Assembly (NCBI RefSeq): GCF_026241755.1
Contig: NZ_JAPJDA010000013.1
Span: 1-64,000, forward strand
Direction: 5' to 3'
Length of the DNA: 64,000 nt
Origin: Salinimicrobium profundisediminis
GTDB lineage: Bacteria > Bacteroidota > Bacteroidia > Flavobacteriales > Flavobacteriaceae
Below the pieces are notes generated by a model, which searched no databases, had not been told where the DNA came from, and saw only the letters and a program-made list of their open reading frames with translations. The position numbers and the translations under genes are program-made. Positions 47,018-62,650 of the stretch are shown here, piece after piece (positions within the stretch are counted from its first letter, which is position 1; each line of letters opens with the position of its first letter).

Positions 47018-48340
47018 TTACTCATGGGAATGCATATCAGCTTCCCCTTCGTCAAACCTGTTTTTCAGAAAGAAAAATTCAGCAATAAAAATTAGAATAA
47101 TAGAAGGAACCGCGACATAAATTATAAATATGTCAGTTTGAGATTTTACAATCAAGAAGGCAAGAAGAACAACAACATCAAGAATAATTGCTGTAATCAA
47201 AATAGCTGATTTTGCTTTTACTTCCTTTCTCAGATATCTCAAAACCCCCACATGAACGATTATATCCATGACCAGGTAGAAAATAGCACCCAAAGAAGCA
47301 ATTCGGCTTAGGTCAAAGAATATGGTCAAGATAATTGCAATTACTACTATATATATCAGCATATGCCTTTGGATAGTTCCAGACATTCCAAGATGGCTAT
47401 GGGGGATTAAATGCATATCTGTGAGCATTCCTGTCATCCGGGAAACTGCAAAAATACTGGCGATCACCCCGGAAACCGTTGCTATAATAGCAATTCCAAC
47501 GGTAAAGATTAATCCAAAATCCCCGAACAGGGGCCGAGCAGCTTCCGCAAGCGAGTAATCTTTTGCTTCTATTATTTGAGTAATAGAAAGATTCGATCCT
47601 ACAGCCAGAGCTACTAAAAAATAGATTACCACACAAGTTGATAAAGAAATTACTATGGCCCTACTAACATTTTTGTGAGGCTTTTCAATTTCACTCCCGC
47701 TATTGGTTATAGTAGTAAAACCTTTATATGCCAAAATAGATAAGGCAAGTGCAGCAACATAATCAACAATGCTGTTTTTGCGTTCTTCAGAAGGAACAGC
47801 CGCATCCAGATCCACCCCGGAAGCCCAAAGGGCTCCAGCTGCAAAAATAATTAAACCTCCAATTTTTAAAGCTGCCATATAAAGGGAGATTTTTCCAATT
47901 GCTTTATTTCCAAGAATATTTACAACAAAGGCTGTTATAAGCAATCCTACCCCTAAGGCTGGAACCCAGAAGCTTCTTTCCCCAGCATCAAATAGCTGCA
48001 AGGTGTAACTCCCAAATGTCCTGGCGACCAGGCTTTCATTAATAATCATAGAAAAGGCCATGAGCAAAGATGCGGCAGCTGTAATAGTTCCTTTGCCATA
48101 CGCTTTTTGCAGGTACATAGCTATCCCTCCTGCTGAAGGATAAGCATTGGACATTTTAATATAAGAGTAGGCACTAAAACCGGAAATAATTCCTCCCAGG
48201 ATAAAAGCATATGCAAAGTATTCCCCGGAGAGTTCGGCCACCTGCCCAAGGAGCGCAAAAATCCCTGCACCAATCATTACACCTGTTCCCATTGCCACCG
48301 CACCGGTAAGGGAAAGGCTGTTCTTTTTATATTCAGACAT
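47018..48340 (-). CDS. APC-family amino acid permease
   Basis: A 440-residue transporter with 12 helices. The first is GAVAMGTGVMIGAGIFALLGQ, with the unwound GTGVMIGAG motif of the amino acid-polyamine-organocation family. Substrate unknown; relatives import neutral amino acids or polyamines. It lies between the HMA gene and the PRC-barrel gene without obvious coupling. Confidence 0.88.
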   Translation of the reverse strand: MSEYKKNSLSLTGAVAMGTGVMIGAGIFALLGQVAELSGEYFAYAFILGGIISGFSAYSYIKMSNAYPSAGGIAMYLQKAYGKGTITAAASLLMAFSMIINESLVARTFGSYTLQLFDAGERSFWVPALGVGLLITAFVVNILGNKAIGKISLYMAALKIGGLIIFAAGALWASGVDLDAAVPSEERKNSIVDYVAALALSILAYKGFTTITNSGSEIEKPHKNVSRAIVISLSTCVVIYFLVALAVGSNLSITQIIEAKDYSLAEAARPLFGDFGLIFTVGIAIIATVSGVIASIFAVSRMTGMLTDMHLIPHSHLGMSGTIQRHMLIYIVVIAIILTIFFDLSRIASLGAIFYLVMDIIVHVGVLRYLRKEVKAKSAILITAIILDVVVLLAFLIVKSQTDIFIIYVAVPSIILIFIAEFFFLKNRFDEGEADMHSHE

Positions 48341-48452
48341 ATAATTCTTTAAAAAAAATCAATCAACCTTCAATATAACTTCAAAAAAAGGAAATTCCGG
48401 GCTTTCATTTAATAAGCTGAATTCCTTTGACTATAAGTAGACCTGCATTTCC

Positions 48453-49004
48453 TCATTCTTCATCAGAACCGAAAAAAGTCCTTTCATTGAAATCCTCCTG
48501 GTTGTAAAAATTCCCTTGCGTATAACTGATTTCCTCCTTTTGTTTTGCGGAAAAAATTAGCAGAGTCTTCTTTTCATCTTCAATAGCGAGACTTTTTAAG
48601 TTTTTATAGGTGGGCAATGTTTTTAGTTTCTCAGCACTTACTTGTTCCTGAACAACAATTTTTTGTTTCTCTTGATTTAGTTCTGCTCTTCCTATGGGAA
48701 TTAAAACATCCTTATCCTCTTTTACATTTATCTCTAATCCCACAACGAGGTATCTTATTCTTTTCTGGGTTTTGTCGAACAAAAAATCCTTCAGCTTTCC
48801 CACTCTTGTTCCAGTAGCATCAACTATCTGCCTTCCATAAATCCTGGAAAAATGATCATCAATTTTGTAGTCGCTGTTCTTAAGCTCTTCCAAATGTTCA
48901 AGTGGTGCAGAAATCTCATTAGGATCTCTTGAGGTACTTCTTTTTATATCCTGACCAACCTCATCATATTTCCACTTCTGTATCATTATTCTGTGTCTCG
49001 TCAT
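48453..49004 (-). CDS. PRC-barrel domain protein
   Basis: A 183-residue cytoplasmic protein with one PRC-barrel domain at about 52-115 (IYGRQIVDATGTRVGKLKDFLFD, then RIRYLVVGLEI). The flanks are charged and probably flexible. PRC-barrels bind photosynthetic reaction centres or RNA-processing factors; stand-alone members in metal islands have no known role. A 199-base spacer separates it from the CopB gene, so it probably has its own promoter. Confidence 0.8.
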   Translation of the reverse strand: MTRHRIMIQKWKYDEVGQDIKRSTSRDPNEISAPLEHLEELKNSDYKIDDHFSRIYGRQIVDATGTRVGKLKDFLFDKTQKRIRYLVVGLEINVKEDKDVLIPIGRAELNQEKQKIVVQEQVSAEKLKTLPTYKNLKSLAIEDEKKTLLIFSAKQKEEISYTQGNFYNQEDFNERTFFGSDEE

Positions 49005-49203
49005 ATCCTAATTTTAATCGGGTTTAATTATTTCAAAACATATCATTAAAAACTAAACATATTATTTTTCAAAGTAAAAATTGGACCCTTGATTTCCCTT
49101 TATAATTCTAATCAGTGAGAAAGAAATATTTTAGCCTTTGCAAGTGTCTCCATTGCAAAATTTTTCATGAAAATTAAATGAAATTTTCCAAGAACTTTTT
49201 CTC

Positions 49204-51348
49204 CTATTTTCCAATCTTTTTCTTCAGTAACTGCGCATTAATTGCAACAATAACTGTACTCAAACTCATAAACACGGCCCCAACGGCAGGTCCTAACACA
49301 AAACCTGTGGAATAAAGTACTCCGGCAGCTAATGGAATGGCTACAACGTTATAACCCGTTGCCCATACCAGGTTCTGAATCATCTTATCATAAGTAGCTT
49401 TTCCAAAAAGGATTAGATTGGCAATATCCTGAGGATTACTGTTGACCAGGATGATATCGGCAGTTTCTGCAGCCACATCTGTTCCCGAACCTACTGCAAT
49501 ACCAACGTTCGCCTGAGCCAAAGCCGGCGCATCATTAACCCCGTCACCGGTCATGGCCACAAATTCTCCCTTACTTTCCAATTCTTTAACTATTTCCACT
49601 TTTTGATGGGGTAAGACTTCTGCATAATATCCATCCAGACCGAGTTTGTCACTAACTCCTTTAGCGGTCCTCTCATTATCCCCTGTTGCCATAAAAACTT
49701 TAATATTGTTCTCTTTAAATATCCTGATGGCGTCTGCAGACTCGGGTCTAATCTCATCGGCAAGCGCGATATACCCGGCTAATTCACCGTTGATCAATAC
49801 AAAAACCACAGTTTCGGCTGCATCGCTATAGGCATCTTCGGGGATGTTGATATTTTCATCCCGCAAGTATCCAGGACTTACTACTTTCACCTCTTTTCCC
49901 TCTACAGTGGCCTCGACTCCTTTGCCGGTAATGGCATTAAAGTTTTCTGGTTTTGGAATAGGGACTTTATCATCTTTTACTTTTTTGATGATCCCAACAG
50001 CAATAGGGTGTTCAGAACTCTGTTCTAACGCGCTGGAAAGCCTTAGAATCTCTTCCTTGGAGAATTTATCATTCACAGATTCGATACGGGTGACGCCGAA
50101 GTCCCCTTTAGTAAGGGTTCCGGTTTTATCAAAAAGTAAGGCGGTAATTTTTCGGGATTCTTCAAAAGCCGTTCGGTTACGAATTAACAATCCATTTTGG
50201 GCAGATACTGCTGTAGAAATTGCGACTACAAGTGGAATTGCCAGTCCTAGCGCATGGGGGCAGGCAATGACCATAACCGTCACCATTCTCTCAAGTGCGT
50301 ACACAAAAGGAAAGCCTAAGATCAACCAAACCGCAAGAGTGCCAAAACCAATACCCAATGCTATGTAGGTCAACCATTTTGCGGCCCTGTCGGAAAGGTT
50401 TTGCATTTTGGATTTGGATTTTTGCGCTTCCTCCACCATAGTGATCACCTTATTGAGATAGCTATCCTTCCCGGTATGTTCGACTTTAGCCTTTAAGGAT
50501 CCATTGCCGTTAATAGATCCACCAATTATTTTTTGATCTGTACTTTTCTTTACCGGTTTTGATTCCCCGGTAAGCATCGACTCATTCAGGTAGCTTTCAC
50601 CCTCCACGATTATAGCATCTGCAGGCACTTTTTCACCAGGTTTAACAAGAATTATATCTCCTTTTTTTAGCGTATCCAGCTTTACATCTTCAATCTGATC
50701 TCCGTTTACCCGATGCGCTTCCGCAGGCATCATACTCACCAAAAGCTGTAAAGCTTTGGAAGCACCCAAAACAGATTTCATTTCAATCCAATGCCCTACC
50801 AGCATAATAGCAATAAGCGTAGCGAGTTCCCAGAAAAAGTCAACACCCTCGAGACCAAAGACCGTGGCAGAACTGTAGAGATAAGCCACTGTAATTGCCA
50901 TAGAAATGAGGGTCATCATCCCTGGGGCAGCTTTTTTCACTTCAGACCAAAAGCCTTTCAAAAATGGCCAGCCTCCATAGAAGTAAACAACAGTCGAGAG
51001 GGCAAAAAGGATGTACTTATTTCCTGGTAGAAGATATTTGTACCCAAAGAAATCCTGGATCATTGGCGACAGAAAGAGGATTGGGATAGTTAAAACAAGA
51101 GTTACCCAAAAACGCTTCTTAAAATCTTCAATCATCATTTTATGGTGATCATGACCTGCATGGCCATGAGCGGGTTCATCATCGTCATGTTTCCCCCTGT
51201 CATGATCCATCATGTCCCGGTCCATCGCCTTATTGTGCCCATGTTTTGTTTTTTCAGCAAGGTCATCCTTTAAGTTAGCTTCTTCTTTTCTTGCTTCCCG
51301 CTTCGCTGAATTCTTTGACTCCTCCTTGTGTTCGTCGTGATGTTCCAT
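49204..51348 (-). CDS. copB: Copper-exporting P-type ATPase, CopB type
   Basis: A 714-residue P1B-3-type ATPase for Cu/Ag export across the inner membrane. The N-terminal 75 residues are His/Asp-rich (HGHNKAMDRDMMDHD, HGHAGHDHHK) in place of an HMA domain. The membrane metal site is CPH (C363-H365), which separates it from the CPC of CopA; the phosphorylated Asp is D407 in DKTGTLT, and the ATP-binding HP motif and GDGVNDAPAL hinge follow. All parts are intact, in contrast to the gutted CopA nearby. It is the last gene of the long minus-strand unit, 11 bases after the small DUF gene. Confidence 0.95.
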   Translation of the reverse strand: MEHHDEHKEESKNSAKREARKEEANLKDDLAEKTKHGHNKAMDRDMMDHDRGKHDDDEPAHGHAGHDHHKMMIEDFKKRFWVTLVLTIPILFLSPMIQDFFGYKYLLPGNKYILFALSTVVYFYGGWPFLKGFWSEVKKAAPGMMTLISMAITVAYLYSSATVFGLEGVDFFWELATLIAIMLVGHWIEMKSVLGASKALQLLVSMMPAEAHRVNGDQIEDVKLDTLKKGDIILVKPGEKVPADAIIVEGESYLNESMLTGESKPVKKSTDQKIIGGSINGNGSLKAKVEHTGKDSYLNKVITMVEEAQKSKSKMQNLSDRAAKWLTYIALGIGFGTLAVWLILGFPFVYALERMVTVMVIACPHALGLAIPLVVAISTAVSAQNGLLIRNRTAFEESRKITALLFDKTGTLTKGDFGVTRIESVNDKFSKEEILRLSSALEQSSEHPIAVGIIKKVKDDKVPIPKPENFNAITGKGVEATVEGKEVKVVSPGYLRDENINIPEDAYSDAAETVVFVLINGELAGYIALADEIRPESADAIRIFKENNIKVFMATGDNERTAKGVSDKLGLDGYYAEVLPHQKVEIVKELESKGEFVAMTGDGVNDAPALAQANVGIAVGSGTDVAAETADIILVNSNPQDIANLILFGKATYDKMIQNLVWATGYNVVAIPLAAGVLYSTGFVLGPAVGAVFMSLSTVIVAINAQLLKKKIGK

Positions 51349-51359
51349 AATTCCTGAAT

Positions 51360-51665
51360 TTACTGGTTAATTTGTCTTAGTTTGGTTCGCATTGTTTCCG
51401 AAATATTTTCTGAATAGATACCGTATGCATCTACCAAAATCCCCCTGACCCCATAACGGGAAGAGATATCAAATAATATACTGTTGTCATCTGTACTGCT
51501 CATTCCTTCAAATCTATATACTTCATTGACCAAAAAATCCTGTGGGTGTATCTCCAGCTTTAAAGAGGGGCACTCAAGACAGTGAGGCTTTAAATTAAAA
51601 TCATATTTGTAACCTCTGGCCTGGAGGCCATTCACAGCTTCTGAAAGGGTGTCATAATTATTCAT
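51360..51665 (-). CDS. Small conserved protein, database-named PRPP synthetase-like
   Basis: A 101-residue protein of a family found in Bacteroidetes that I recall as being labelled phosphoribosylpyrophosphate synthetase in databases. Conserved stretches are MNNYDTLSEAVNGL, CLECPSLKLEIHPQDF, YRFEGMSSTDDNSILFDIS and GVLVDAYG-like GILVDAYGIYS. It contains no PRPP-binding loop and is far too short to be that enzyme, so the name is likely wrong. The CLEC pair may bind metal. It is encoded five bases after the unknown secreted protein gene. Confidence 0.7.
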   Translation of the reverse strand: MNNYDTLSEAVNGLQARGYKYDFNLKPHCLECPSLKLEIHPQDFLVNEVYRFEGMSSTDDNSILFDISSRYGVRGILVDAYGIYSENISETMRTKLRQINQ

Positions 51666-51671
51666 TTTCTT

Positions 51672-52316
51672 TTATTTATAAGTCATTGTAAAATAACTGT
51701 TGTCTTCTTCGATAAATTCTTGAAAGTTCAATAGACCTTGTCCATTTAATTTCTCGTTAACAGTATAATTTAGTTGCTTAATGCGAATCCCCCACGCATA
51801 GGTCTTAATATTGATCTTTGAATTAATAGTTTTTTTGTTGTCATTGAACTTTCGGTCATATATCTTTATAATACTTTTGGAACCAAAAAAATCGAGCAGT
51901 CCCGAATCAAAAGTCATTTCCAATTCTATATTTTCAAGGTTGTCCAAATCGTAAAGCCTTTTAAATTTTTCAGAGGTGGTATTAACCTTGGTCTGCCTTG
52001 ATTTTGGGTTGGAAAACGGCAAAGCCGTTATTATAATACTGGCTTCATCAGGCTTACAGAGATAGGTCGTGGTGTATTTATCGGTCAATTTTTTGTCTTT
52101 ATCCAACAATTCTGTAACTACCTCAATTTCATAATATCCATTTTTCTTTATTGTTTCACCCGCTTCAAATATTTGTTTATTGAGAAAAGCACCTTTTTCA
52201 TCAAAATTCTCACGAATGACCACTCTGCCTGAAATCTGCCCTATAAGCATTTCCGTTTGTCCAGTCATTGTGATGCTGAATAAGATAAATAGTACTATAA
52301 ATCCTTGTTTTCTCAT
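51672..52316 (-). CDS. Secreted protein of unknown function
   Basis: A 214-residue exported protein with signal peptide MRKQGFIVLFILFSITMTGQ, then strand-rich sequence without cysteines. A conserved-looking opening (GQISGRVVIRENFDEKG) may be a small beta domain. Its ATG overlaps the stop of the prs gene by four bases, so it belongs to the same operon. I do not recognise a family. Confidence 0.6.
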   Translation of the reverse strand: MRKQGFIVLFILFSITMTGQTEMLIGQISGRVVIRENFDEKGAFLNKQIFEAGETIKKNGYYEIEVVTELLDKDKKLTDKYTTTYLCKPDEASIIITALPFSNPKSRQTKVNTTSEKFKRLYDLDNLENIELEMTFDSGLLDFFGSKSIIKIYDRKFNDNKKTINSKINIKTYAWGIRIKQLNYTVNEKLNGQGLLNFQEFIEEDNSYFTMTYK

Positions 52317-53206
52317 ATATGGTGCATTAATTTCTTTACCTCTTTTGCAATAATATTGCTTAAATCTATGCCATTGGATGGATGCGGAATGGTATTGCAG
52401 GTAACTATCTTTTCTACTCCGGAATCCAATAAATCTTGATAGGCATTTCCTGAAAAAACGGCGTGAATGCCTACGCAGATAGGGGGTTTCATTCCTGCTT
52501 TTTTCAGATGTTGTACGGTTTCAATCATTGTTCGCGCGGTGGAAATAATATCATCTACCAAAATGGGTGTGGCATTCTTGTACTTATCCATATCAGGAAC
52601 AGAGACTTCCACGTCACGGTCGCCGTGACGTACTTTCTGTAATACCGTAAAAGGTGCGCCAGCATTTTTAGCGACTTCGGAAACCCATTGTTCACTTTCC
52701 AAATCGGGCCCGATAAGTACCGGGTTTTTGATGTATTTCTTGATCCATTCTGAAATGGCATCAGCAGCGTGAATTACTTTATTTGGAATTTGATACACTT
52801 CTCCCAAAGAACTAATTCTATGCAAATGAGGGTCAACTGTGATAATGCTATCGGCAAAACCTGAAATCAATTTTCCAAAAAAACCGGAATTCACTCCTTC
52901 ACCTTCATTAAATACTTTGTCCTGACGCATATACGCCAAATAGGGTGCTACCAAGCAGGTGCACATTGCTCCCAAGGATTTGGCTGTGTGGCTTAAAAAA
53001 TATAGAGGCAGCAGTTTCTCGTCCGGTTCGTGCAAGGTGCATACTAGTACCACACATTTATCTTTAACATCAGATAATATACGCGTGTATGACTCCCCGT
53101 CAGGGAATTTACGCACGTTGGCTTTCCCTATTTCAGCATCCATTTTTTTTGCTAAAAGCTCTGTAAGTTTTTCATTTCCGGGAAGGCTAAATAATATTGT
53201 TTTCAT
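52313..53206 (-). CDS. prs: Ribose-phosphate pyrophosphokinase
   Basis: A 297-residue PRPP synthetase that makes 5-phosphoribosyl 1-pyrophosphate from ribose 5-phosphate and ATP. It has the substrate-binding PGNEKLTELLAKKM opening, RKFPDGESYTRI, the flexible-loop region DPHLHRI, and the PRPP-binding loop VDDIISTARTM. It is shorter than the housekeeping bacterial enzyme (about 310-315 residues) and resembles the archaeal-type branch; a second, core prs elsewhere is likely. It follows the AMP phosphorylase gene by seven bases. Confidence 0.92.
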   Translation of the reverse strand: MKTILFSLPGNEKLTELLAKKMDAEIGKANVRKFPDGESYTRILSDVKDKCVVLVCTLHEPDEKLLPLYFLSHTAKSLGAMCTCLVAPYLAYMRQDKVFNEGEGVNSGFFGKLISGFADSIITVDPHLHRISSLGEVYQIPNKVIHAADAISEWIKKYIKNPVLIGPDLESEQWVSEVAKNAGAPFTVLQKVRHGDRDVEVSVPDMDKYKNATPILVDDIISTARTMIETVQHLKKAGMKPPICVGIHAVFSGNAYQDLLDSGVEKIVTCNTIPHPSNGIDLSNIIAKEVKKLMHHI

Positions 53207-53213
53207 AGCACGT

Positions 53214-54716
53214 TTAAATTATGGTTATGATGTCGTTATGGTTATTTTTATATTCCAATGCATAGTTAAGTTCGCCTTTGGATTCAGCATATAAAGTATA
53301 TAGCAATTGATTCTTTTCTATTTGTTCTCCCAAATGGATATTTAATAGAATTCCTGCCGAAATAGATTGAGGTGCTCCTGAAAGCTTTGCGAGCTTCGCT
53401 ATTTTTCGGTTATCAATTCTTTTTAAAATTCCGGATCTTTCGGCTGTAATTTCCATCTTATGAGGTGCTAAAACAGGTTTTGAAAAGCGTCCTTGTGCTT
53501 TGCAAATGGCCACAAATTTTTCATAAGCTTTTCCAGATTTGAGAATTTGACGTGCTGTTTCCAGTCCCTTTCCTTTTTCTTCTTTTCCAGAAAGCTCAAA
53601 TAGTTCAGCGGCTAAAAGCAATGCTCTTTCTGTTAGGTCTTTAGGTGCATCAGCTTCATTTTTCAAAACTTTTAATATATCAATAGCTTCTAAAGTGGGA
53701 CCGATACCCCTTCCAACAGGCTGCGTTCCATCAGTAACCACAGCTTTTGCCTTCAACCCAACAGCAGTGCCAACGGTTTCCATATGATTTTTTAATTTTA
53801 GAGCCATTTCAGTACTGCGAACCTTGGCGGTTTCACCAATTGGAATATCAATGACAACGTGAGTAGAACCTGCCGCCGCTTTTTTAGAAAGTACAGAAGC
53901 GATGAGCTGACCTTCACTATCGATATCCAAAGCTTTTTCAACTTTAATGAGCACATCGTCGGCAGGACTTAATTGCGCTGTACCTCCCCAGACAAAACAT
54001 CCTCCTTCTTTTTCGACTACAGCTTTTATTTCTTCGGAAGAGAGCGTTACATTGGTCAATACTTCCATCGTATCTGCTGTACCAGCTGGTGAAGTGATGG
54101 CACGTGACGAAGTTTTAGGCATTGTAAGTCCATAAGCGGCAACAATAGCTACTACCAATGGGGTTGTTCTATTGCCTGGTAAACCACCAATACAATGTTT
54201 ATCGACCACAATATCTTTACTCCAGTCCAACTGTCTTCCTGAAGCTATCATTGCTTTAGTAAGGTCGCATATCTCATCAATATCCATTCGGTCGCCCGCA
54301 CAGGCTGTAATAAATGCCGATAGGTGAATGTTAGAATAATTGCCTTCTACGATATCGTTGATGATGTTGTTATAGGCTTTAAAATCCAGTTTTTGATTAT
54401 AGATTTTAGCTCTTACGTGGCTTAACGATTCAATAGGCTCCAAATGGGAAACATACAGCATTTCATTTTGGGAAACATTCAGTTTTTTTGCTGCAGCATC
54501 CGAAAGGCCTATTTCATTTGGTAAAAGAAGGCCGGAACTCAAAACGTTCAAGCTTGCGACGATTGAGGTGGTTGCATTTGATATCCTGATCCTTGTTAGT
54601 GCTACAAACCCTTCAGAACTACAGACGTGGCAATCCTCACGCATATACACTACATATTCGTTTTGGGTGTAAATCCCGAGATGTTTATATTTTAGTATGT
54701 TTGAGTGTGGGTCCAT
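53214..54716 (-). CDS. Archaeal-type AMP phosphorylase (thymidine phosphorylase family)
   Basis: A 500-residue enzyme of the AMP phosphorylase (NMP phosphorylase) branch of the thymidine phosphorylase family, which in archaea splits AMP, CMP and UMP with phosphate into base and ribose 1,5-bisphosphate. It has the archaeal N-terminal extension (residues 1-90), absent from bacterial DeoA. DKHCIGGLPGNRTTPLVV, PKTSSRAITSPAGTADTMEVL (given as two stretches) and GSTHVVIDIPIGE are nearly the archaeal consensus I remember. A bacterial thymidine phosphorylase is ~440 residues, so this length is informative. Which nucleotide it prefers is unknown. Confidence 0.85.
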   Translation of the reverse strand: MDPHSNILKYKHLGIYTQNEYVVYMREDCHVCSSEGFVALTRIRISNATTSIVASLNVLSSGLLLPNEIGLSDAAAKKLNVSQNEMLYVSHLEPIESLSHVRAKIYNQKLDFKAYNNIINDIVEGNYSNIHLSAFITACAGDRMDIDEICDLTKAMIASGRQLDWSKDIVVDKHCIGGLPGNRTTPLVVAIVAAYGLTMPKTSSRAITSPAGTADTMEVLTNVTLSSEEIKAVVEKEGGCFVWGGTAQLSPADDVLIKVEKALDIDSEGQLIASVLSKKAAAGSTHVVIDIPIGETAKVRSTEMALKLKNHMETVGTAVGLKAKAVVTDGTQPVGRGIGPTLEAIDILKVLKNEADAPKDLTERALLLAAELFELSGKEEKGKGLETARQILKSGKAYEKFVAICKAQGRFSKPVLAPHKMEITAERSGILKRIDNRKIAKLAKLSGAPQSISAGILLNIHLGEQIEKNQLLYTLYAESKGELNYALEYKNNHNDIITII

Positions 54717-54737
54717 TATTTTATTGATTGCTGGGAT

Positions 54738-56114
54738 TTATTCTATTTCTTCGATGGTGTATAATTGCGGAATTTCTGTATTCCATCCATAGGTTTCCTT
54801 GATACCTTTTTGTAATGCTTCTGCACTTTCTTTTTCACCGTGGACGATGAATATACGTTCGGGCTTATTTTTAATGTCCCCCATCCATTCTATAAGTTCT
54901 GCGTGGTCTGCGTGTGCCGAGAGACCTTCAATTTCAGCGACCTGCATTTTAAAAGGTACCCATTTTCCATAGACTTTTAGTTCTTTCTCACCTTCCAATA
55001 ATTTTCTGCCACGTGTGCCTTCGGCTTGGTAGCCTATAAAAAGCAGAGTGTTGTTGGGATTTTGCGCCTGGGTTTCAAGATAGTTGAGCATTCTTCCACC
55101 TGTGAGCATTCCACTCCCTGCAATTACAATTTTCGGTTTGTTATTGGTTCTTAACTCCATTGTTTCCCGATAACTACTAACAACCGTAAAGTGTGAGCAC
55201 ATTTCGTCACATTCGTTATCTTCCAATTTGTGCCAATCACGAGTTCTATGAAACAGTTCCAATACGTTGGCACCCATAGGACTGTCCATAATCATTTGTA
55301 CTTTGGGAATTTTGTTCTCCTTGATTAATTTCCAAAAGATGAGCATCATCAATTGTGCACGCTCTACCGAAAAACTGGGAATAAATAAGCTGCCACCTCT
55401 ATTGATGGTATCGTTGATTAATTTTTCGATTTTTGGAAGCGCTTCTACTTCATCAGGATGAAACCTTCCTCCGTAAGTGGATTCAACGAAAAGTATATCC
55501 GCTTTTTTTGGTTTAAGGGGTGGATAGAGCAATAAATCATTGGTTCTACCAATGTCTCCAGAGAAGACAAAGCGTTTTCCATAAATATCCAACTCAATAT
55601 AAGTTGCACCCAGAATATGCCCGCTGTACTGGAACCGAGCCCTGATACCATCAAATAACGGAATCCATTGTGCTTGTGGAATGCCCTTAAAATGCGGAAT
55701 GGTTTTTTCTACATCCTTTAAATCGTAAAGCGGTTCTGCGAGACTGTGTTTGGAATAGCCTTCTTTATTGGCACGTTCTGCTTCCTGTTCCTGAATTTTT
55801 GCACTATCGTTCAATATGATTTTTGCAATGTCCAAAGTAGGATTCGTACCATAGATGGAACCATTGAAGCCTTGTTTCACCAACCTCGGCAGATAACCTG
55901 TATGGTCCATATGGCCGTGGGTGAGCAAAACAGCATCAATATTTGCAACATTAACAGGTGGGTACTCCCAGTTTTTAAGGCGTAATTCCTTTAGCCCTTG
56001 AAAAAGTCCGCAGTCTATGAGTATCTTTTTATCTCCTGTATCCACTAAATATTTTGAGCCGGTTACTGTACCTGCTGCCCCCAAAAAGTGAATGTTTATT
56101 TGATTAGTTTTCAT
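54738..56114 (-). CDS. Beta-CASP metallo-beta-lactamase RNase-like protein
   Basis: A 458-residue MBL-fold protein with the beta-CASP and RMMBL domains of RNA-processing nucleases (CPSF73/RNase J-like, but the Ysh1-type specificity group). The zinc motif is LLTHGHMDHTGYLP with H66, H68, D70 and H71; SGHILGATYIELD, FIPSFSVERAQ and the C-terminal FIVHGEKESAEAL are the family landmarks. It should degrade or process RNA in the cytoplasm. ATG 56114 is chosen, as the upstream ATG at 56141 would overlap the nuclease gene. Confidence 0.9.
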   Translation of the reverse strand: MKTNQINIHFLGAAGTVTGSKYLVDTGDKKILIDCGLFQGLKELRLKNWEYPPVNVANIDAVLLTHGHMDHTGYLPRLVKQGFNGSIYGTNPTLDIAKIILNDSAKIQEQEAERANKEGYSKHSLAEPLYDLKDVEKTIPHFKGIPQAQWIPLFDGIRARFQYSGHILGATYIELDIYGKRFVFSGDIGRTNDLLLYPPLKPKKADILFVESTYGGRFHPDEVEALPKIEKLINDTINRGGSLFIPSFSVERAQLMMLIFWKLIKENKIPKVQMIMDSPMGANVLELFHRTRDWHKLEDNECDEMCSHFTVVSSYRETMELRTNNKPKIVIAGSGMLTGGRMLNYLETQAQNPNNTLLFIGYQAEGTRGRKLLEGEKELKVYGKWVPFKMQVAEIEGLSAHADHAELIEWMGDIKNKPERIFIVHGEKESAEALQKGIKETYGWNTEIPQLYTIEEIE

Positions 56115-56128
56115 CGGTTGTTCTAGGA

Positions 56129-56968
56129 TTAGATTTTGCATAGTTCAAGTGAATCTTCCAGAATTCTTTTGTGTCGGGAGTTGGGAATCCCTACTTTATC
56201 CAACAAGTTCGGACTTTCGTGGAGTTCTTTACAGAGAACAATGCCTTCATCCAATAATTTTGTTTTCTCAGCTTTCGTTAAACTTGTTAAGGCTGTTAAG
56301 GGGTGCAATCCCGCCTGGTCAATTCTATCTTTGAGTCCACTCTCCTTTGGATAATCCCAACTGGTCATTAGCAGGCCAACACAATTGCCATAGTTTATGG
56401 CATCAGATGTAAAACGTGTATTGGTATATAAACCTCCTTTGTGGATTTTGTTCTGGTGACCCTTTTTACGTCTCCACTGTTTTTCCACATCTAAAAAACG
56501 GGAATGGATGTACAAAGGAATTTTTACATTGCAAAACCTGCCTTGATCACTATGGTATTTACATTCAATCATATAATGTTTTTCACCTTTTTGCGCTATC
56601 ACATCCACTTCATGCTGAACGCAATTGCCTTGTACAATCACACCAACCTTTGTTTCAAATCCTTCGTGTGCCAATAATTTGCCTACCAACTTTTCAAATG
56701 GGAAGCCAGAAGGGCCTAATTCCATCAATGCCTTTTTAAGCTTGTATTTAAAGGCACTTACTCTCGATTTTGCCTTAAGCATTTTAAACGCTGCCTCATA
56801 GATCCTTTTAGTGGTCATCCCTTCTTCAAGCTGTTCATACACCTTATGAGCTATATCCTTAACAATAACCTCATTTGCTCCCGCCCGCCTAAGGGAATTG
56901 ATGAGTTTTTCAATTTGGAAATCCTCATACTCACCCGAAGACTTTTTAACCAGGACTGATCTTTTCAT
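56129..56968 (-). CDS. ATP-cone and Mrr-like nuclease fusion protein
   Basis: A 279-residue protein in two parts. Residues 1-90 form an ATP-cone like the regulatory domain of ribonucleotide reductase and NrdR (VKKSSGEYEDFQIEKLINSL). Residues about 90-180 form a restriction-endonuclease-like fold with HEVDVIAQ and MIECKYH as the D...ExK catalytic residues. The C-terminal 100 residues are unassigned. It should be a DNA or RNA nuclease controlled by ATP/dATP level. Starts at ATG 56968; a GTG at 56974 overlaps the stop of the stress-protein gene. Confidence 0.82.
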   Translation of the reverse strand: MKRSVLVKKSSGEYEDFQIEKLINSLRRAGANEVIVKDIAHKVYEQLEEGMTTKRIYEAAFKMLKAKSRVSAFKYKLKKALMELGPSGFPFEKLVGKLLAHEGFETKVGVIVQGNCVQHEVDVIAQKGEKHYMIECKYHSDQGRFCNVKIPLYIHSRFLDVEKQWRRKKGHQNKIHKGGLYTNTRFTSDAINYGNCVGLLMTSWDYPKESGLKDRIDQAGLHPLTALTSLTKAEKTKLLDEGIVLCKELHESPNLLDKVGIPNSRHKRILEDSLELCKI

Positions 56969-56970
56969 AG

Positions 56971-57801
56971 TCACATTTTAATTGTCATAACGGGCAATTC
57001 AGAATGGTTGGTTACCTTTTCAACGGTGCTACTGGAGAAGAGACTTAAAAATCCCGTGCGCCCGTGCGTACACATGGCAATAAGATCCACATTTTTGTAG
57101 ATCAAAAAATCATTTATTCCTTCCTCTACACCCGATTCGTTATAGACATTCATTGAGTAAGTTGTGAGCCCTGGGAAATTTTCAAGGAAATCTTTTATAG
57201 GTTGCAGACTCTTTTCAATACTATTATAATCTGTTGTAGTATTCACCTTTAATAAATGGATACGTGCATCACATTTTTCAGCAAGTGATTTTACGTGTTG
57301 AAATTCTTCTGTCACATCTTCTTTAAAATCTGAGACAAACAAAATGTCTTTAAAAGGAAAAGAAACATCCTTATCTTTAACTACGATGACAGGCACCTCG
57401 GCTTTTCTCACTATTTCTTCTACATTGCTTCCCCGTAATTCACGAATTCCTCCTTTTGTGCCACTACTACCGGTAACTATAAAATCATGTTCAAAATGAC
57501 CGCAGTGGCTTAGGATGTTGCTTATTTCACCATTATATTCCAAAAAGGTTCTGCATTTAAGTCCAAGGCCCTCTGCTTTTTTTTCTAATTCTCTCAAATC
57601 TGCCTTCGCGCTGCCAATCTTTAATTTTGTTTCGGGGTATAGATCTTCCTTCTGTTTGTCCAGTCGAACCCAGTCAACCGGGGTTTTTACGTAATGGAAG
57701 AAATGGATTTCCGAATTGTAAAATTTAGCCATTTTGAGCCCCAGCTCCTCTGCTTTTTGACAATTTTCAGAAAAATTGGTAGGTACAAGTATATTGTTCA
57801 T
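56971..57801 (-). CDS. Tandem-domain universal stress protein
   Basis: A 276-residue UspA-family protein with two repeats (about 1-140 and 145-276). The second keeps the nucleotide-binding GRTGFLSLFSSSTVEKV and both have VPVIVVKD/LPVMTIKM ends. Probably an ATP- or nucleotide-binding stress protein of the cytoplasm, induced by starvation or low oxygen in other species. Directly coupled to the nuclease gene (overlap 4 bases with its GTG). Confidence 0.9.
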   Translation of the reverse strand: MNNILVPTNFSENCQKAEELGLKMAKFYNSEIHFFHYVKTPVDWVRLDKQKEDLYPETKLKIGSAKADLRELEKKAEGLGLKCRTFLEYNGEISNILSHCGHFEHDFIVTGSSGTKGGIRELRGSNVEEIVRKAEVPVIVVKDKDVSFPFKDILFVSDFKEDVTEEFQHVKSLAEKCDARIHLLKVNTTTDYNSIEKSLQPIKDFLENFPGLTTYSMNVYNESGVEEGINDFLIYKNVDLIAMCTHGRTGFLSLFSSSTVEKVTNHSELPVMTIKM

Positions 57802-57817
57802 AATTTAAAATTATTAG

Positions 57818-58153
57818 TTATTTCACATTATCGTTTTTGGTATTTTTTATCTTAAATATATCCTGGACATCAGAAACATATATGAGACCATCACCACTTT
57901 TTCCTGTTCTGCCATTTTGACGAACGATGTCACAAATAGCCGCCACTTTACTGTCCTCACAGACGATTTCCAGTTTATAGATCTTGCTGTGGAGGAATGG
58001 TAGTTTGAGGGAAGGCCAATCTTCTCCAGGATCTGTGTAATCGCCGGTTCCTTCTCCCTCAAAGACTGTTAAACAGCAATGGCCCTCTCTCCTCAAGGAA
58101 GAAATCACCTCCTTAATTTTATTTGGCCGTATGAATGCTTTTATTTCTTTCAT
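57818..58153 (-). CDS. PII-like signal protein with atypical T-loop
   Basis: A 111-residue PII-superfamily protein. MKEIKAFIRPNKIKEVISSLR is the usual start and GRTGKSGDGLIYVSDVQDIFKI the usual ATP-binding C-terminus. The T-loop region (about 30-58), GEGTGDYTDPGEDWPSLKL, has no uridylylated Tyr and is unlike GlnB/GlnK. This matches PII proteins found in metal and stress clusters rather than nitrogen genes. No amtB or glutamine synthetase gene is near. It may sense ATP/ADP, or a different ligand. Confidence 0.85.
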   Translation of the reverse strand: MKEIKAFIRPNKIKEVISSLRREGHCCLTVFEGEGTGDYTDPGEDWPSLKLPFLHSKIYKLEIVCEDSKVAAICDIVRQNGRTGKSGDGLIYVSDVQDIFKIKNTKNDNVK

Positions 58154-58180
58154 AACCTCTTATTTATTGTTATTGATAAA

Positions 58181-59191
58181 TCATATTCCTAACGTGCGGT
58201 TGGTTTTAAGTATGGATACGTGTTCATCTTCTATGATACCTGTGAGTGCTCTTATCGCATCAATAGTTTCGGGGATTACAATAGCCTGGTTGTCTACCAC
58301 ATAGGCATAGAAGAGTTCGTCTCCCTGTACTTTCAACATATCCTCCCAAAGTGCAACTTCGTACATGTCCCCCCAGGGTCTTCCCATATCCAGGAACATT
58401 TCTTTTATAGTATTGTTTGAAACCAAACCCTGCTCGTACCGAATCATCTTAATTCTTGTCGACGTTTTAAAAGCATTTAAAACTTCATCTTTTGAGGCCT
58501 TTTTTGTCAGTCGCACATTCCAGTAGTGCATATGGCTCAGGGTTTCAGGTACTTTTACTGCAGCAGTAATAACATCCAGTTCGGGATCTACACTTTGAGC
58601 ATCGGGACCCTGATGACTGGGAATATCTTTTTCAGGAACCATTGTATTCATGATTCCCCCCATATGGCTTTCCCAGGGATCTGTTGCTCTTCGTAAAAGA
58701 GTACCGCGGGCACTTTGTAACAGATTTGCCCTTTTTAGAGCCGTAAGAGTTCTTAAAATGGAGGTGGTGTTGCACGAAACCACCCGCGTAGCATCTATGT
58801 TTAGAGCGGTTTGGTAATTGTTTTCGGCACTGAAGGAATGGCCCGCAGTTTCATGCTTTTCACCTCCTTGTACAATAAATTTTTTACCTTGACTTTTGTA
58901 TCGTTCTACGTTTTTTGCGGCAACTTTTTTAGGGGTGCAATCCACAACCAGGTCCACCTGATCTAAAAGCTCTGTCATTCCGCCTTTAACGGAGAATCCG
59001 GCGTTTTTCATTTCCTTTTCTGCTTCTTGTGTCGCGCTGTAAATATTGTAGTTTTTTCTTACCGCATTTTCTATGCGCCAGTCACTTATGATATCACAAA
59101 TGCCGGTTAACTCCATATCATGTTGTTTGTCAATGGCATCGGCAACTCTTTTGCCGATGACTCCATAACCTACTACTGCTATTTTTTTCAT
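58181..59191 (-). CDS. Archaeal-type (type II) glyceraldehyde-3-phosphate dehydrogenase
   Basis: A 336-residue GAPDH of the type II group, which is typical of archaea and rare in bacteria; it phosphorylates glyceraldehyde 3-phosphate with NAD(P). The nucleotide motif is VVGYGVIGKRVADAI and the catalytic Cys is C140 in SCNTTSIL. Bacterial type I GAPDH (with SNASCTTN) must be present elsewhere for normal glycolysis. The start is ATG 59191; an upstream TTG adds three residues. First gene of the minus-strand unit. Confidence 0.93.
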   Translation of the reverse strand: MKKIAVVGYGVIGKRVADAIDKQHDMELTGICDIISDWRIENAVRKNYNIYSATQEAEKEMKNAGFSVKGGMTELLDQVDLVVDCTPKKVAAKNVERYKSQGKKFIVQGGEKHETAGHSFSAENNYQTALNIDATRVVSCNTTSILRTLTALKRANLLQSARGTLLRRATDPWESHMGGIMNTMVPEKDIPSHQGPDAQSVDPELDVITAAVKVPETLSHMHYWNVRLTKKASKDEVLNAFKTSTRIKMIRYEQGLVSNNTIKEMFLDMGRPWGDMYEVALWEDMLKVQGDELFYAYVVDNQAIVIPETIDAIRALTGIIEDEHVSILKTNRTLGI

Positions 59192-59356
59192 GACTTCCAA
59201 TTTTTTAATTTGATCTTGTTCCTTTGTTTCACATTACTTTCGTGTTTAAAGTAACCTGATTATGCTTTGGATGTACCAGGCGAGTGGCTTATCTCGATTA
59301 AAAGTGTATTTCAAGTAGATCCTTAATTACAAAAGCATTAAATGCAGCAGTATCCT

Positions 59357-59629
59357 TTAACCTTTTACTTGAGCATTATAAAATGCCGCTACACAAGCAC
59401 CGATTAGCCAGCTTAAGATGAAAACCTGGATAATTCCAAAGAACACCTCCAGTACAGGCACATCCATTCTTATTATACTACTTGTGTCCAGTCCGTGTAA
59501 AAGACTGTTAAAGAACTTTACTGTTCCTTCCCGCCCCACTGTGGCCATCACCAGTACACACCCCACATAAAGGAGAGCTCCGGTAAGACCGAGTGCCAAA
59601 CCAAATTTTTTTATGTTTAATCGATACAT
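59357..59629 (-). CDS. DUF5676-like small membrane protein
   Basis: A 90-residue protein with two hydrophobic helices (FGLALGLTGALLYVGCVLVMA and EVFFGIIQVFILSWLIGACVAAFYN). It resembles DUF5676 membrane proteins that are often found in metal-resistance clusters. Function unknown. It follows the SHOCT gene by 17 bases, in the same transcript. Confidence 0.75.
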   Translation of the reverse strand: MYRLNIKKFGLALGLTGALLYVGCVLVMATVGREGTVKFFNSLLHGLDTSSIIRMDVPVLEVFFGIIQVFILSWLIGACVAAFYNAQVKG

Positions 59630-59646
59630 ATTTTCAGATTTTAAAA

Positions 59647-59859
59647 TTATTTATCCGATTCTAATAGCTTCTTTTGTTCTTCGAACTGTTCCTTCGAAAT
59701 TTCGCCACGTGCAAATCGCTTTCTTAGGATGTCCAGTGGTTCTTCTCTTCTTGTTTTTTTTCCCCATTGTGTTGGTATCATGAAAACCCAGATAAGAAAA
59801 ACTATCCAGATGAACCACCAGATGAGGTGCATTCCAAAAAATCCATCATAATTGTGCAT
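59647..59859 (-). CDS. SHOCT-domain small membrane protein
   Basis: A 70-residue protein with one N-terminal membrane helix (LIWWFIWIVFLIWVFMIP) and a C-terminal SHOCT motif (PLDILRKRFARGEISKEQFEEQK). SHOCT proteins bind other membrane proteins or DNA in stress clusters. It lies four bases after the DUF2933 gene. Confidence 0.88.
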   Translation of the reverse strand: MHNYDGFFGMHLIWWFIWIVFLIWVFMIPTQWGKKTRREEPLDILRKRFARGEISKEQFEEQKKLLESDK

Positions 59860-59863
59860 GTCT

Positions 59864-60100
59864 TTATTTTTTTTGATGTTGGTTTGTTACTTGATCTTTG
59901 CTTTTTTTCTTTAAATTCTCATCGGTTAACCCGTGAGTATGATCTCCATGCCGCATAGGCATCATTAGATGTATGGCAAACATTATGATGATAAATGTGA
60001 AAAGCCAGACATCACCACCCAATCCAATTGATGGGGCCAAAAAGATGAGCAAAAGAGGTAAAACACATCCGATGATCATCCATAACCAGTGATTTTTCAT
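59864..60100 (-). CDS. DUF2933-like small membrane protein
   Basis: A 78-residue protein with two hydrophobic helices at the N-terminus and a His-containing loop (PMRHGDHTHGLTD), then a basic tail. DUF2933 proteins often lie in copper-resistance islands. First of three small membrane-protein genes; role unknown. Confidence 0.75.
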   Translation of the reverse strand: MKNHWLWMIIGCVLPLLLIFLAPSIGLGGDVWLFTFIIIMFAIHLMMPMRHGDHTHGLTDENLKKKSKDQVTNQHQKK

Positions 60101-60250
60101 TTTAATTTATTTTAATGATTAAACAATTACTTCATAGAGTATATTATAAGTTAACAAAAAAGATGTTTTAAAAACATGATATTGCTCAATTCTGCCCAAC
60201 ATTCAATACTCTTTGTTGACTGTATAGGTTATTTTCTCATCTATTTATCT

Positions 60251-62650
60251 TTAGTTTTGTTGATATTGAATCACTTTAGTTGATTTATTGGAAATTGTAA
60301 AAGATTGTTTCTTAAATTGAATTTTTATGTCGGATTCAACTTCATCCAGAGGCTCTATTCGACAACTATTGGCCGAAAAGTTTAACTGTAACCATACACC
60401 TCTATAATTGATCTTCATACTGAGGGAATTTATCTCTTTGGGTAATTGGGGATTTAGCCAAAGCACATCATTTCGGATCTCCAAACCTGTAAAACACCTT
60501 TGTACAATATCTATGGTACCTGCCATAGCGCCCAGATGTATACCCTCGGGTGTGGTGCCGCCCTGCACATCTTCAAAATCACTAACAAGTGCCTCTCTGA
60601 AACAATGCCAAGCACATTTACGATCGGATCTGGCCACAACCCAGGACCGGACTATACGGCTAAGAGTAGAACCATCTGAGGTGCGGGTACCGTAGTATTT
60701 AATGTTATCAGGAATGTTGGATGGAGTGAAATCATACCCTAAACCTTTGAATAGCAGTACTAATTGTTCAGAAGAAAAAAGGTAAAAGAGCATAAGCACA
60801 TCTGCCTGCTTGGAAGCCTTGTAGCGATTAACAGAGTCACCCTCGGCATCTAATATTCTGTCAAGCCGGTGAATATCGTTGTACTTCTTTCGATAGGCTT
60901 CCCATTCGAAATCCTCCAACTGTTCATAACCCTCAAACTGGGCGATAATTCCTTCTTCAATAAACGGAATATATAATTTGCTTCCTATTTCTTTCCATTT
61001 TTCCAACTCCCTGTCATCCAACTGCAGCTCTTGTTTTAAAACATCCCGACGGGTAATTCCAATTAAATCAAATGCTTTTAAAGAATGGGAGAAAAGCCAG
61101 GAAGCCATGACATTGGTGTATGCATTGTTATTTATTCCCGGTCTGTCACTTCCAGGATAGGCGGTATGGAATTCGTCGGGGCCTACTACTTTTCTTATTT
61201 CGTAACGCTGTTTTGAATCGCTCCAGCTGGCCAGTCCGGTAAAGAGACGAGCGATTTCAATGAGCATCTCAGCACCGTAGAATTTCATGAAGTTTTTATC
61301 TGCCGTCACTTCATAATATTGCCAGATATTATAAGCTATAGAGAGATTAACATGACGCTGGAGGTATGTATTGTCTGGAACCCATTGTCCAGATTTCGGA
61401 TTTAAATGAACCACCTGGCTTTCTTCCCGTCCATTGCTTCCGCTTTGCCAGGGGAACATAGCTCCATCATAACCTTCCCTTTTAGCGAGTTTTTTAGCTT
61501 CTTCTAAGCGTTTATATCGATAGAGGAGCAGGGAACGGGTAAGGTCAGGTAGGCGGTAATTAAGAATTGGGAATATGAATAACTCATCCCAGAAAATATG
61601 GCCACGATAAGCCTCTCCATGCCAACCTCGCGCCGGTAATCCAACATCCCGACCAATGGTAAGTTTAGAAGCCGTTTGAAGCAAATGAAAAATATGTAAT
61701 CTGAGGAGGAGCTGAGAGTTTCCCGATGCATTGACGAAAATATCAAACTTGTTCCACAATCTTTTCCAGGCTTCAGAATGTCTTCTTTTTACAACAGAAA
61801 AATCTGCCTGACCATTTACTTGCTTCAAAGCATCGTTGAGCGGTTCACTTATTGCATCGTCTTTGGAGGTAAAAAGGGACACCGTTTTTTCTATAGAAAC
61901 TTGTTCTCCCAGAGTCACGTGAAAAGTGAATATTTCACCAATTACCTCTTTTTCCCGAAAAAACTTTCGTATTACATCCAGCTTTTGAGTTTTAGAAAAA
62001 ATAACGCATTTGGCTGCCTGAGCCATATAGAGGAGGGATTGATTCGTTTGAACCAGAATGTAAATGGCATTTTCTGCTTCTCCTTTTTTAATTATTTTTA
62101 GATGCTGATTCTTTAAAGGTTTATATCGTTTTACGCCCTCATTTTTTGTTGATCCGTCAAGGGTAGAGCGTACTTCTACCATTCCGGACCAGTTTACCAG
62201 CACAAAATCCCATTTTATGGCGGCAAGGTGAGGATTATCCATACTTACCAGTCTTGTACTGATAATCCTTGTTTCCCGCTGTTGTTCATCGATGAAGTGC
62301 ATCTCCCTTCTCAGGATACCTGCAGAGATATCAAGTTCCTGAACATAATTTAAGACCTGTTTTTTTTCTAACTGAAACCAATTCTTATCTCCTTCCAGCC
62401 TGAAGCTTAAGTGCAGCCAGTTAGGCCAATTAACCAGATCTTCATTTTCAATGGTCTTTCCTGCTATTTGTGATTTAAGCCTGTTGTAACCACCTGCCAG
62501 GTAAATGCCCGGGTAATGAGTGCCATCAGCTTTTGATTCTTCTGCTGCTCCCCTGGTGGCGAAATAGCCATTGCCAAGGGTACATAGAGCTTCCCGGAGA
62601 CCCTCTTGTTCTTTTCTTAAACCGTCATATTTCAGCTTCCAGTTTTGCAT
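60251..62650 (-). CDS. Glycoside hydrolase family 65 disaccharide phosphorylase
   Basis: A 799-residue GH65 enzyme, cytoplasmic, that splits an alpha-linked disaccharide (maltose, kojibiose or trehalose type) with phosphate. The catalytic general acid is E493 in VVGPDEFHTAYPG, followed by GINNNAYTN; the (alpha/alpha)6 barrel and the C-terminal beta domain are complete. A beta-phosphoglucomutase, often next to GH65, is not in this window. Specificity cannot be told from sequence. Confidence 0.92.
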   Translation of the reverse strand: MQNWKLKYDGLRKEQEGLREALCTLGNGYFATRGAAEESKADGTHYPGIYLAGGYNRLKSQIAGKTIENEDLVNWPNWLHLSFRLEGDKNWFQLEKKQVLNYVQELDISAGILRREMHFIDEQQRETRIISTRLVSMDNPHLAAIKWDFVLVNWSGMVEVRSTLDGSTKNEGVKRYKPLKNQHLKIIKKGEAENAIYILVQTNQSLLYMAQAAKCVIFSKTQKLDVIRKFFREKEVIGEIFTFHVTLGEQVSIEKTVSLFTSKDDAISEPLNDALKQVNGQADFSVVKRRHSEAWKRLWNKFDIFVNASGNSQLLLRLHIFHLLQTASKLTIGRDVGLPARGWHGEAYRGHIFWDELFIFPILNYRLPDLTRSLLLYRYKRLEEAKKLAKREGYDGAMFPWQSGSNGREESQVVHLNPKSGQWVPDNTYLQRHVNLSIAYNIWQYYEVTADKNFMKFYGAEMLIEIARLFTGLASWSDSKQRYEIRKVVGPDEFHTAYPGSDRPGINNNAYTNVMASWLFSHSLKAFDLIGITRRDVLKQELQLDDRELEKWKEIGSKLYIPFIEEGIIAQFEGYEQLEDFEWEAYRKKYNDIHRLDRILDAEGDSVNRYKASKQADVLMLFYLFSSEQLVLLFKGLGYDFTPSNIPDNIKYYGTRTSDGSTLSRIVRSWVVARSDRKCAWHCFREALVSDFEDVQGGTTPEGIHLGAMAGTIDIVQRCFTGLEIRNDVLWLNPQLPKEINSLSMKINYRGVWLQLNFSANSCRIEPLDEVESDIKIQFKKQSFTISNKSTKVIQYQQN

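Follow-up and report, generated by a model that had tools for sequence, protein, structure and literature searches.

The window analysed here, 64,000 nucleotides of Salinimicrobium profundisediminis (contig NZ_JAPJDA010000013.1, positions 1 to 64,000), holds a minus-strand array of ten open reading frames (ORFs) in which a gene for a nucleoside 5'-monophosphate (NMP) phosphorylase-type enzyme stands next to one for a diverged paralogue of phosphoribosyl pyrophosphate (PRPP) synthetase, here called PRS*. This phosphorylase-PRS* pair, and not its copper ATPase or type II glyceraldehyde-3-phosphate dehydrogenase (GAPDH-II) neighbours, is the object of interest. The gene set to which it belongs is widespread and little studied and, judged from sequence, probably breaks RNA down to sugar phosphate for energy. 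Our preferred reading, to which we give a probability of about 0.5, is a mobile bacterial module for RNA-ribose catabolism under energy limitation, most likely low oxygen, in which PRS* would handle ribose 1,5-bisphosphate (R15P).

PRS* may be the missing R15P enzyme. It is proposed for this step because it is the near-constant partner of the phosphorylase, because its loop at the C1 site is strictly changed, and because R15P isomerase exceeds its cut-off in 0 of 32 carrier genomes. The consequences would reach beyond the window. A gene that curated models name thymidine phosphorylase, and that is over cut-off in 43 of the 185 Gammaproteobacteria genomes sampled, is probably an NMP phosphorylase, and its partner, annotated as a PRPP synthetase, may differ from the ordinary enzyme. 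If this is true, bacteria own an R15P metabolism without R15P isomerase or ribulose-1,5-bisphosphate carboxylase/oxygenase (RuBisCO), and two common annotations mislead.

Linkage of the phosphorylase and PRS*

A pattern scan of genome contigs yielded at least 571 confirmed relatives of the phosphorylase, the best 80 of which were kept as named loci. Neighbouring families in these were counted by tblastn at 90 bits or more, with the proviso that matches to P-type ATPase and to the beta-CASP ribonuclease-like protein may include near paralogues. These counts replace those based on ORFs and clusters, which are lower bounds, as the greedy ORF caller loses genes in G+C-rich DNA and overlooked the phosphorylase itself in 7 of the 80 loci. 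PRS* was found in 72 of the best 80 loci, 65 times within 400 bases and on the same strand, followed by the beta-CASP protein (52), P-type ATPase (47), GAPDH-II (12), phosphoketolase proper (11) and acetate kinase (10).

As the 80 loci were picked by similarity and many are related, a separate class sample was taken, consisting of 185 Gammaproteobacteria genomes around the genome of locus L137, with the centre (G563) picked as a carrier of the gene. PRS* was detected (E<=1e-60) in 41 of these genomes, in 39 of them over cut-off, and 40 of the 43 phosphorylase carriers have both genes (Fisher 8e-36). The association persists when the centre is left out, with the phosphorylase in 42, PRS* in 40 and both in 39 of 184 genomes (Fisher 3e-35). 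At 42 of 45 phosphorylase places in this sample PRS* lies directly downstream of the phosphorylase, with a median gap of 51 bases and a largest gap of 298.

Among the three phosphorylase genomes lacking PRS*, G686 has its match so placed that the contig ends 252 bases away, on the side where PRS* would be expected, and the match in G621 is partial. The third, G709, has no PRS* match, its phosphorylase lying on a 26.6-kb contig, and stays an unexplained exception. Equally unexplained is G708 (L178), in which PRS* occurs without a phosphorylase match and without recognised module genes nearby.

Closer to the window, 8 of 149 genomes, counting that of the window itself, encode phosphorylase relatives of 85-100% identity, and the TIGR02645 cut-off is exceeded in 3 of the 395 genomes of the phylum sample, again counting it. 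The other seven of these close carriers all keep the order of tandem universal stress protein (USP), ATP-cone/Mrr nuclease, beta-CASP protein, phosphorylase, PRS*, two proteins without family match (unk214 and unk101) and CopB, and chance does not explain this. The linkage expected by the initial annotation was thus partly borne out: the core order and PRS* are conserved, while GAPDH-II and the PII-like protein are local. Its coupling of ribonuclease and nuclease genes to the phosphorylase also stands, with the ATP-cone/Mrr gene being a neighbour chiefly in Bacteroidota (25 of 30 loci including the window, vs 2 of 51 others). The module core is the phosphorylase-PRS* pair together with the beta-CASP protein; the copper ATPase, GAPDH-II, the PII-like protein and a glycoside hydrolase family 65 (GH65) protein are peripheral. 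No account of a bacterial phosphorylase-PRS module was found in the literature searched, which is not proof of absence.

Residues of the phosphorylase and of PRS*

The phosphorylase exceeds TIGR02645 with 587.1 bits against a cut-off of 434.6 over residues 8-496, and its residues 58-487 align with the Thermococcus structure 4ga5. Pyrimidine nucleoside phosphorylase (PyNP) uses an Arg to bind the pyrimidine; at the same position Glu260 is found in all 74 bacterial sequences compared (the window and 73 of the 80 loci, seven having been missed by the ORF caller) and in the Thermococcus enzyme. The segment GGLPGNRT likewise corresponds to Thermococcus GGVPGNKT and differs from GGV-GDTT of PyNP. 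On these residues, Glu260 for Arg and a PGNRT core for GDTT, a thymidine phosphorylase function was rejected, and the protein also falls below the cut-offs of TIGR02643, TIGR02644, NF004490 and NF004747, which test for thymidine or pyrimidine nucleoside phosphorylase. By its sequence it is a member of the N-terminally extended NMP-phosphorylase family, in keeping with the NMP-type assignment made initially. Because of Glu260, the Thermococcus-like PGN(K/R)T segment and the acceptance of all natural NMPs by TkAMPpase (extract of PMC8376864), NMP phosphorolysis is likely to be its reaction. An apparent 963-aa beta-CASP-phosphorylase fusion at L172 was not used, as an unreadable codon (X) lies at the junction.

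PRS* is a second copy in its genome. Another PRPP synthetase, 21% identical to it, is encoded on contig C10 and has a canonical PDMGG loop. The Gly-Gly segment of this loop in PRPP synthetases holds pyrophosphate. Where the canonical loop reads PDxG(G/A), PRS* has PDxES, with Glu-Ser in place of the two small residues that follow D168-x, in 67 of 67 sequences and PDxE in 30 of 30 of a second set (29 ES, one EA), the latter being 30 of the 44 places in the class sample and overlapping partly with the 67. The Gly of the ribose 5-phosphate (R5P) loop is replaced in 66 of the 67, mostly by Arg or His, and by various residues in the 26 of 30 that could be parsed in the second set, and a PHLHR motif is present in 67/67.

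The remainder of the active site is largely retained, PRS* keeping the R5P, catalytic and most nucleotide contacts. Invariant in 67/67 are F34, D36 and E38 (FPD.E), R94-D96 (RQD), H127, D168, K191, R193, D218, D219 and T226, with position 223 being T in 44 and S in 23; we take Lys191 and Arg193 to be the catalytic residues. In the E. coli PRPP synthetase, the C1-C3 hydroxyls of R5P are held by a Mg ion that D170 coordinates, H131 and R99 bind the phosphates of ADP, and D170, D220, D221, T225 and T228 contact R5P (extract of PMC9232217); the R5P loop comprises Asp224-Lys231 (extract of PMC6332680). Of the residues invariant in PRS*, D168, H127, D218, D219 and T226 are counterparts of these contacts. 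As PRS* keeps both substrate sites and alters the pocket of the transferred pyrophosphate, it is conceivable that it could move one phosphate and not two (R5P + ADP <-> R15P + AMP).

The proposed R15P step and its alternatives

The absence of R15P isomerase and RuBisCO genes, noticed at first for the window, extends to the whole genome, where neither was found at E<=0.001. The check proposed initially, for an R15P isomerase or kinase elsewhere in the genome, gave neither the isomerase nor the kinase PhnN over cut-off. Among the 32 carriers (the window genome and 31 picked from the 80 loci), isomerase matches were confined to weaker ones below cut-off in 10 of the 31 others, which we regard as relatives among the sugar-phosphate isomerases, MtnA being one example. 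A RuBisCO-family gene is present in four of the 32, and PhnN, which acts on R15P as a phosphokinase in E. coli (extract of PMC9700705), is over cut-off in nine. Neither known R15P-consuming enzyme is over cut-off in 23 of the 32. The handling of R15P had been described as a missing step; this holds as far as isomerase and RuBisCO are concerned, but the PRPP synthetase had been taken at face value, and the evidence suggests that it may be that step.

It can be hypothesized how such a module would work, its reactions, their directions and the physiological trigger being what we infer from the observed gene order, family membership, co-occurrence and residue changes. The beta-CASP protein, together with the ATP-cone/Mrr nuclease in Bacteroidota, would cut nucleic acid to 5'-NMPs, which the phosphorylase would convert to base and R15P. 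PRS* would then consume R15P in place of archaeal R15P isomerase and RuBisCO, the favoured reaction being transfer of the C1 phosphate to AMP (R15P + AMP -> R5P + ADP). R5P could then pass to the pentose phosphate route and on to lower glycolysis; in operons that include genes for phosphoketolase and acetate kinase, these two enzymes could take it instead. Such a combination is seen in L130, with the operon ackA-xfp-PRS*-betaCASP-phosphorylase, in which all exceed NCBIfam cut-offs except the beta-CASP protein, whose matches to such models stay below them, and in L113, with the order betaCASP, small ORF, phosphorylase, ackA-like, xfp-like and PRS*, in which the ackA-like and xfp-like proteins are below these cut-offs and the Pfam XFP models are exceeded. 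Phosphoketolase is present in 1 of 21 entries for module-bearing Bacteroidota (at least two genomes being listed twice), and in those that lack it R5P is presumably taken up by the ordinary pentose phosphate route, GAPDH-II being a local addition.

A possible trigger is indicated by Bradyrhizobium diazoefficiens, in which bll3117-bll3116-bll3115 form a predicted operon with a FixK2 motif listed at -74 and are annotated as thymidine phosphorylase family, ribose-phosphate pyrophosphokinase and metallo-beta-lactamase (MBL) hydrolase (extracts of PMC6515984 and PMC9104804). All three are tabulated among the proteins and genes whose expression differs under microoxia (extract of PMC6515984). In a fixK2 mutant at 0.5% O2 bll3117 (-6.6) and bll3115 (-30.6) are lowered, and so are a phosphoketolase-acetate kinase pair and a USP (extract of PMC9104804). 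A FixK2-controlled operon with the same three annotations points to low oxygen rather than copper, the likeness being one of annotation.

A number of observations weigh against this reading. PRS* is missing from the stretch examined in 8 of the 80 loci. In four of these, L105, L114, L118 and L133, the phosphorylase is directly followed by ackA and xfp, and unless PRS* is encoded at another place in those genomes, such loci speak against an indispensable role for it. The phosphorylase misses the AMP_phos equivalog TIGR03327 (480.8 vs 535), as do its bacterial relatives in L130 (498.7) and L113 (470.7), and exceeds NF003338 (678.3 vs 434), the best-fitting NCBIfam subfamily model, whose name, thymidine phosphorylase, counts against NMP phosphorolysis. 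At K97 of PRS*, the counterpart of the ADP contact R99 of E. coli, 61 of 67 sequences have K or R and the other six have neither. The PRS* of G708, a genome without the phosphorylase, also has a PDAES loop, and PDxE would accordingly mark the PRS* subfamily and not the phosphorylase linkage itself. The reaction R15P + AMP -> R5P + ADP is uphill by standard energies and needs high AMP or removal of R5P. Phosphoketolase was not found in the window genome and co-occurs weakly in the class sample (16 of 43 phosphorylase genomes, Fisher p 0.022), so that it was rejected as an obligate partner. FNR-type boxes are not clearly enriched upstream (7/39 vs 22/280, Fisher p 0.066), and none was found near the window operon.

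That PRS* is after all an ordinary PRPP synthase with altered regulation we regard as somewhat unlikely. R5P + ATP would give PRPP + AMP, the phosphorylase would split AMP into adenine and R15P, PRPP would drive base salvage, and R15P would go to a phosphatase or mutase. It is in keeping with this that PRS* exceeds NF005537, a model named ribose-phosphate diphosphokinase, that it retains the contacts to R5P, the catalytic ones and most of those to the nucleotide, and that the expected product AMP is the expected substrate of the phosphorylase. It fits poorly with the strictness of the PDxE loop so close to the C1 site and with the canonical-loop synthetase already encoded elsewhere in the genome, and it leaves R15P without a recognised exit. 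A PhnN-type kinase activity of PRS* (R15P + ATP -> PRPP + ADP), taking NMP ribose to PRPP, would have the advantage that the chemistry is known in E. coli (extract of PMC9700705) and that PhnN itself is so seldom over cut-off in the phosphorylase genomes. The phosphates would, however, have to shift relative to the conserved PRS site, and the negative charge of a Glu near the C1 phosphate would seem to disfavour a pyrophosphate product, so that we consider this improbable.

The direction of the pathway might also be reversed, with PRS* using R5P and a nucleotide to form R15P, and the phosphorylase building NMPs from free bases in a PRPP-free salvage. Both reactions are reversible in principle, and R15P is a node between nucleoside and nucleotide metabolism in Thermococcus (extract of PMC9700705), but the linked genes, which encode a ribonuclease-like protein, phosphoketolase and acetate kinase, point to breakdown and make an anabolic module quite improbable. 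Least credible is the copper/stress operon of the initial annotation, with GAPDH-II, PII and CopB as integral parts, to which we assign a very small probability. The window does have all of them in a single tight array, and 47 of the 80 loci, more than half, have a P-type ATPase close to the phosphorylase. The ATPase type, however, differs between clades: in a clustered set it is CPH in 15 of 16 Bacteroidota, the window included, and CPC or motif-less in 17 of 20 others. GAPDH-II is found in only 12/80 loci and in 14 of 296 phylum genomes, among which the phosphorylase cut-off is exceeded in just two, the window genome and G342. PII and GH65 accompany the cassette in the window and two congeners but were not found beside it in the other five of the seven genomes inspected; GH65, initially seen as adding a further reaction, is likewise outside the conserved core.

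Returning to the module for RNA-ribose catabolism, its most specific form is that PRS* is a new activity, a ribose-1,5-bisphosphate:AMP phosphotransferase, derived from PRPP synthetase through lost gamma-phosphate (pyrophosphate) binding in the PDxGG loop. With the NMP phosphorylase it would provide a route free of RuBisCO and isomerase, from RNA ribose and phosphate to ADP and R5P, for fermentation of own RNA in Pseudomonadota and Bacteroidota, and would have moved between phyla. This full proposal is tentative and, taken as a whole, rather unlikely.

Setting of the array and comparison with known systems

The ten ORFs run from 59191 to 49204, and the tight spacing noted initially is confirmed, all nine junctions overlapping or lying at most 27 bases apart (gaps of 27, 16, 21, 7, 6 and 11 bases; overlaps of 4, 13 and 4). 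The gene names hold by Pfam and NCBIfam, except that the phosphorylase is below the AMP_phos equivalog cut-off and that the PRPP synthetase is a diverged second copy. The genes are:

58181..59191 (ORF start 59200/59191), minus strand: GAPDH-II, archaeal-type; NF003251 and TIGR01546, best PDB match 1cf2
57818..58153, minus strand: PII-like signalling protein; PF00543, 51.1 bits, cut-off 25
56971..57801, minus strand: tandem USP; PF00582 in two stretches, kept in 7/7 other genomes inspected
56129..56974, minus strand: fusion of ATP-cone and Mrr/PD-(D/E)xK nuclease; PF03477 + PF04471, catalytic motif present
54738..56141, minus strand: MBL/beta-CASP/RMMBL ribonuclease-like protein (core); PF10996, PF07521, PF00753
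53214..54716, minus strand: NMP phosphorylase-type enzyme (core); above the TIGR02645 cut-off
52313..53206, minus strand: PRS*, diverged PRPP synthetase paralogue (core); NF005537, 397.7 bits, cut-off 322
51672..52316, minus strand: unk214, probable exported protein with LolA/YmcC-like beta fold; model and Foldseek, no family match
51360..51665, minus strand: unk101, small conserved CxxC protein; no family match
49204..51348, minus strand: CopB-like Cu P-type ATPase; TIGR01511, 613.8 bits, cut-off 397; His-rich N-terminus, CPH motif

GAPDH-II exceeds two equivalog cut-offs (NF003251 442.6 bits against 185; TIGR01546 325.7 against 232.9), whereas the PII-like protein matches two NCBIfam P-II models far below cut-off. 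The ExD...(E/Q)xK motif occurs in 26 of 27 cluster members of the ATP-cone/Mrr protein and is also read in the window protein. The beta-CASP protein carries the MBL and beta-CASP catalytic motifs THxHxDH, SGD, SxHAD and HGE and is below the named equivalogs aCPSF1 (304.9 vs 580.2) and Cas14 (395.1 vs 800). For unk214, found in at least 19 of 81 loci including the window, the model (pLDDT 73.6) gave the putative lipoprotein 4fvs as best Foldseek match (E 2.6e-8, TM 0.44), and the protein is probably exported with a LolA/YmcC-like fold. The 11 sequences of unk101 have a mean column identity of 83%, and its model (pLDDT 64.9) is too weak for a fold search. The name CopB is used here on the assumption that it denotes CPH-type ATPases.

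Some relatives carry more genes between USP and GAPDH-II, and the window cassette consequently looks like a reduced or variant form. In L035 (L035:3516-19948) this interval encodes a D-lactate dehydrogenase-like protein, which is below all NCBIfam cut-offs, a phosphofructokinase, an SDF-family symporter and a class I fructose-bisphosphate aldolase; with the dehydrogenase-like protein, phosphofructokinase, aldolase and GAPDH-II in one run, it looks as though the module were accompanied by a fermentation kit. In L032 (G009) GAPDH-II aligns as two overlapping pieces in different frames, possibly by frameshift or assembly error. Outside the array, 60251-62650 encodes a GH65-family protein below the NCBIfam GH65 and kojibiose hydrolase model cut-offs; 46470-46957 encodes two tandem small proteins with MTCNGC metal-binding-like motifs, mutually 56% identical over 72 residues; and 48453-49004 matches the photosynthetic reaction centre H subunit weakly (44.2 bits, cut-off 200) and is perhaps, we assume, a PRC-barrel protein.

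The stretch 43815-62665 (18.8 kb) is about 99.1-99.3% identical in DNA (blastn) to two congeneric species, beginning at 44474 against genome G003 and at 43815 against G009, and the remaining aligned pieces are 75-97% identical. Such a block with more diverged flanks points to recent exchange between congeners. A tRNA-Met attachment site for the block was rejected, the last 12-20 tRNA bases having no second copy on the contig. In trees of 32 phosphorylases and 30 PRS*, drawn from a hand-picked subset of loci, Marinicella (L068), a gammaproteobacterium, is nested within flavobacterial sets of good support (97/92, 8 rows; 100/98, 11 rows, the latter also including a Verrucomicrobia metagenome-assembled genome), which suggests transfer of the module between phyla. 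Its pairing with Aequorivita, at 92/81 and 83/78, is below the starred level in both trees.

Among known systems, the NMP (AMP) phosphorylase of Thermococcus kodakarensis is like the window enzyme in its homology over residues 58-487, in having Glu for the PyNP Arg, and in the PGN(K/R)T and KTSSRAITS segments common to both. It differs in that the window phosphorylase has Lys-His-Cys for Val-His-Ser and lies below the AMP_phos cut-off. Unlike the pentose bisphosphate pathway of that archaeon, the bacterial phosphorylase has PRS* as partner, and a search of the window genome found neither R15P isomerase nor RuBisCO. The haloarchaeal non-carboxylating pathway is similar insofar as nucleoside ribose leaves via R15P without RuBisCO; there, however, R15P is made from ribose 1-phosphate and then passes to R15P isomerase, ribulose-1,5-bisphosphate phosphatase and aldolase (extract of PMC9700705), and that isomerase is over cut-off in none of the 32 bacterial carriers. 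E. coli PhnN also acts on R15P (extract of PMC9700705), but belongs to another family than PRS* and is not over cut-off in the window genome. The Bradyrhizobium operon has the same three core annotations in one predicted operon and is likened by annotation only; ATP-cone nuclease, GAPDH-II and CopB are not named with it in the extracts describing it (PMC6515984, PMC9104804). With the class I and III PRPP synthetases of E. coli and M. jannaschii, finally, PRS* shares the two-domain family and the R5P, catalytic and most nucleotide contacts, and it departs from them in having PDxE(S) for PDxG(G/A), in the nearly universal loss of the R5P-loop Gly (66/67) and in its invariant PHLHR motif.

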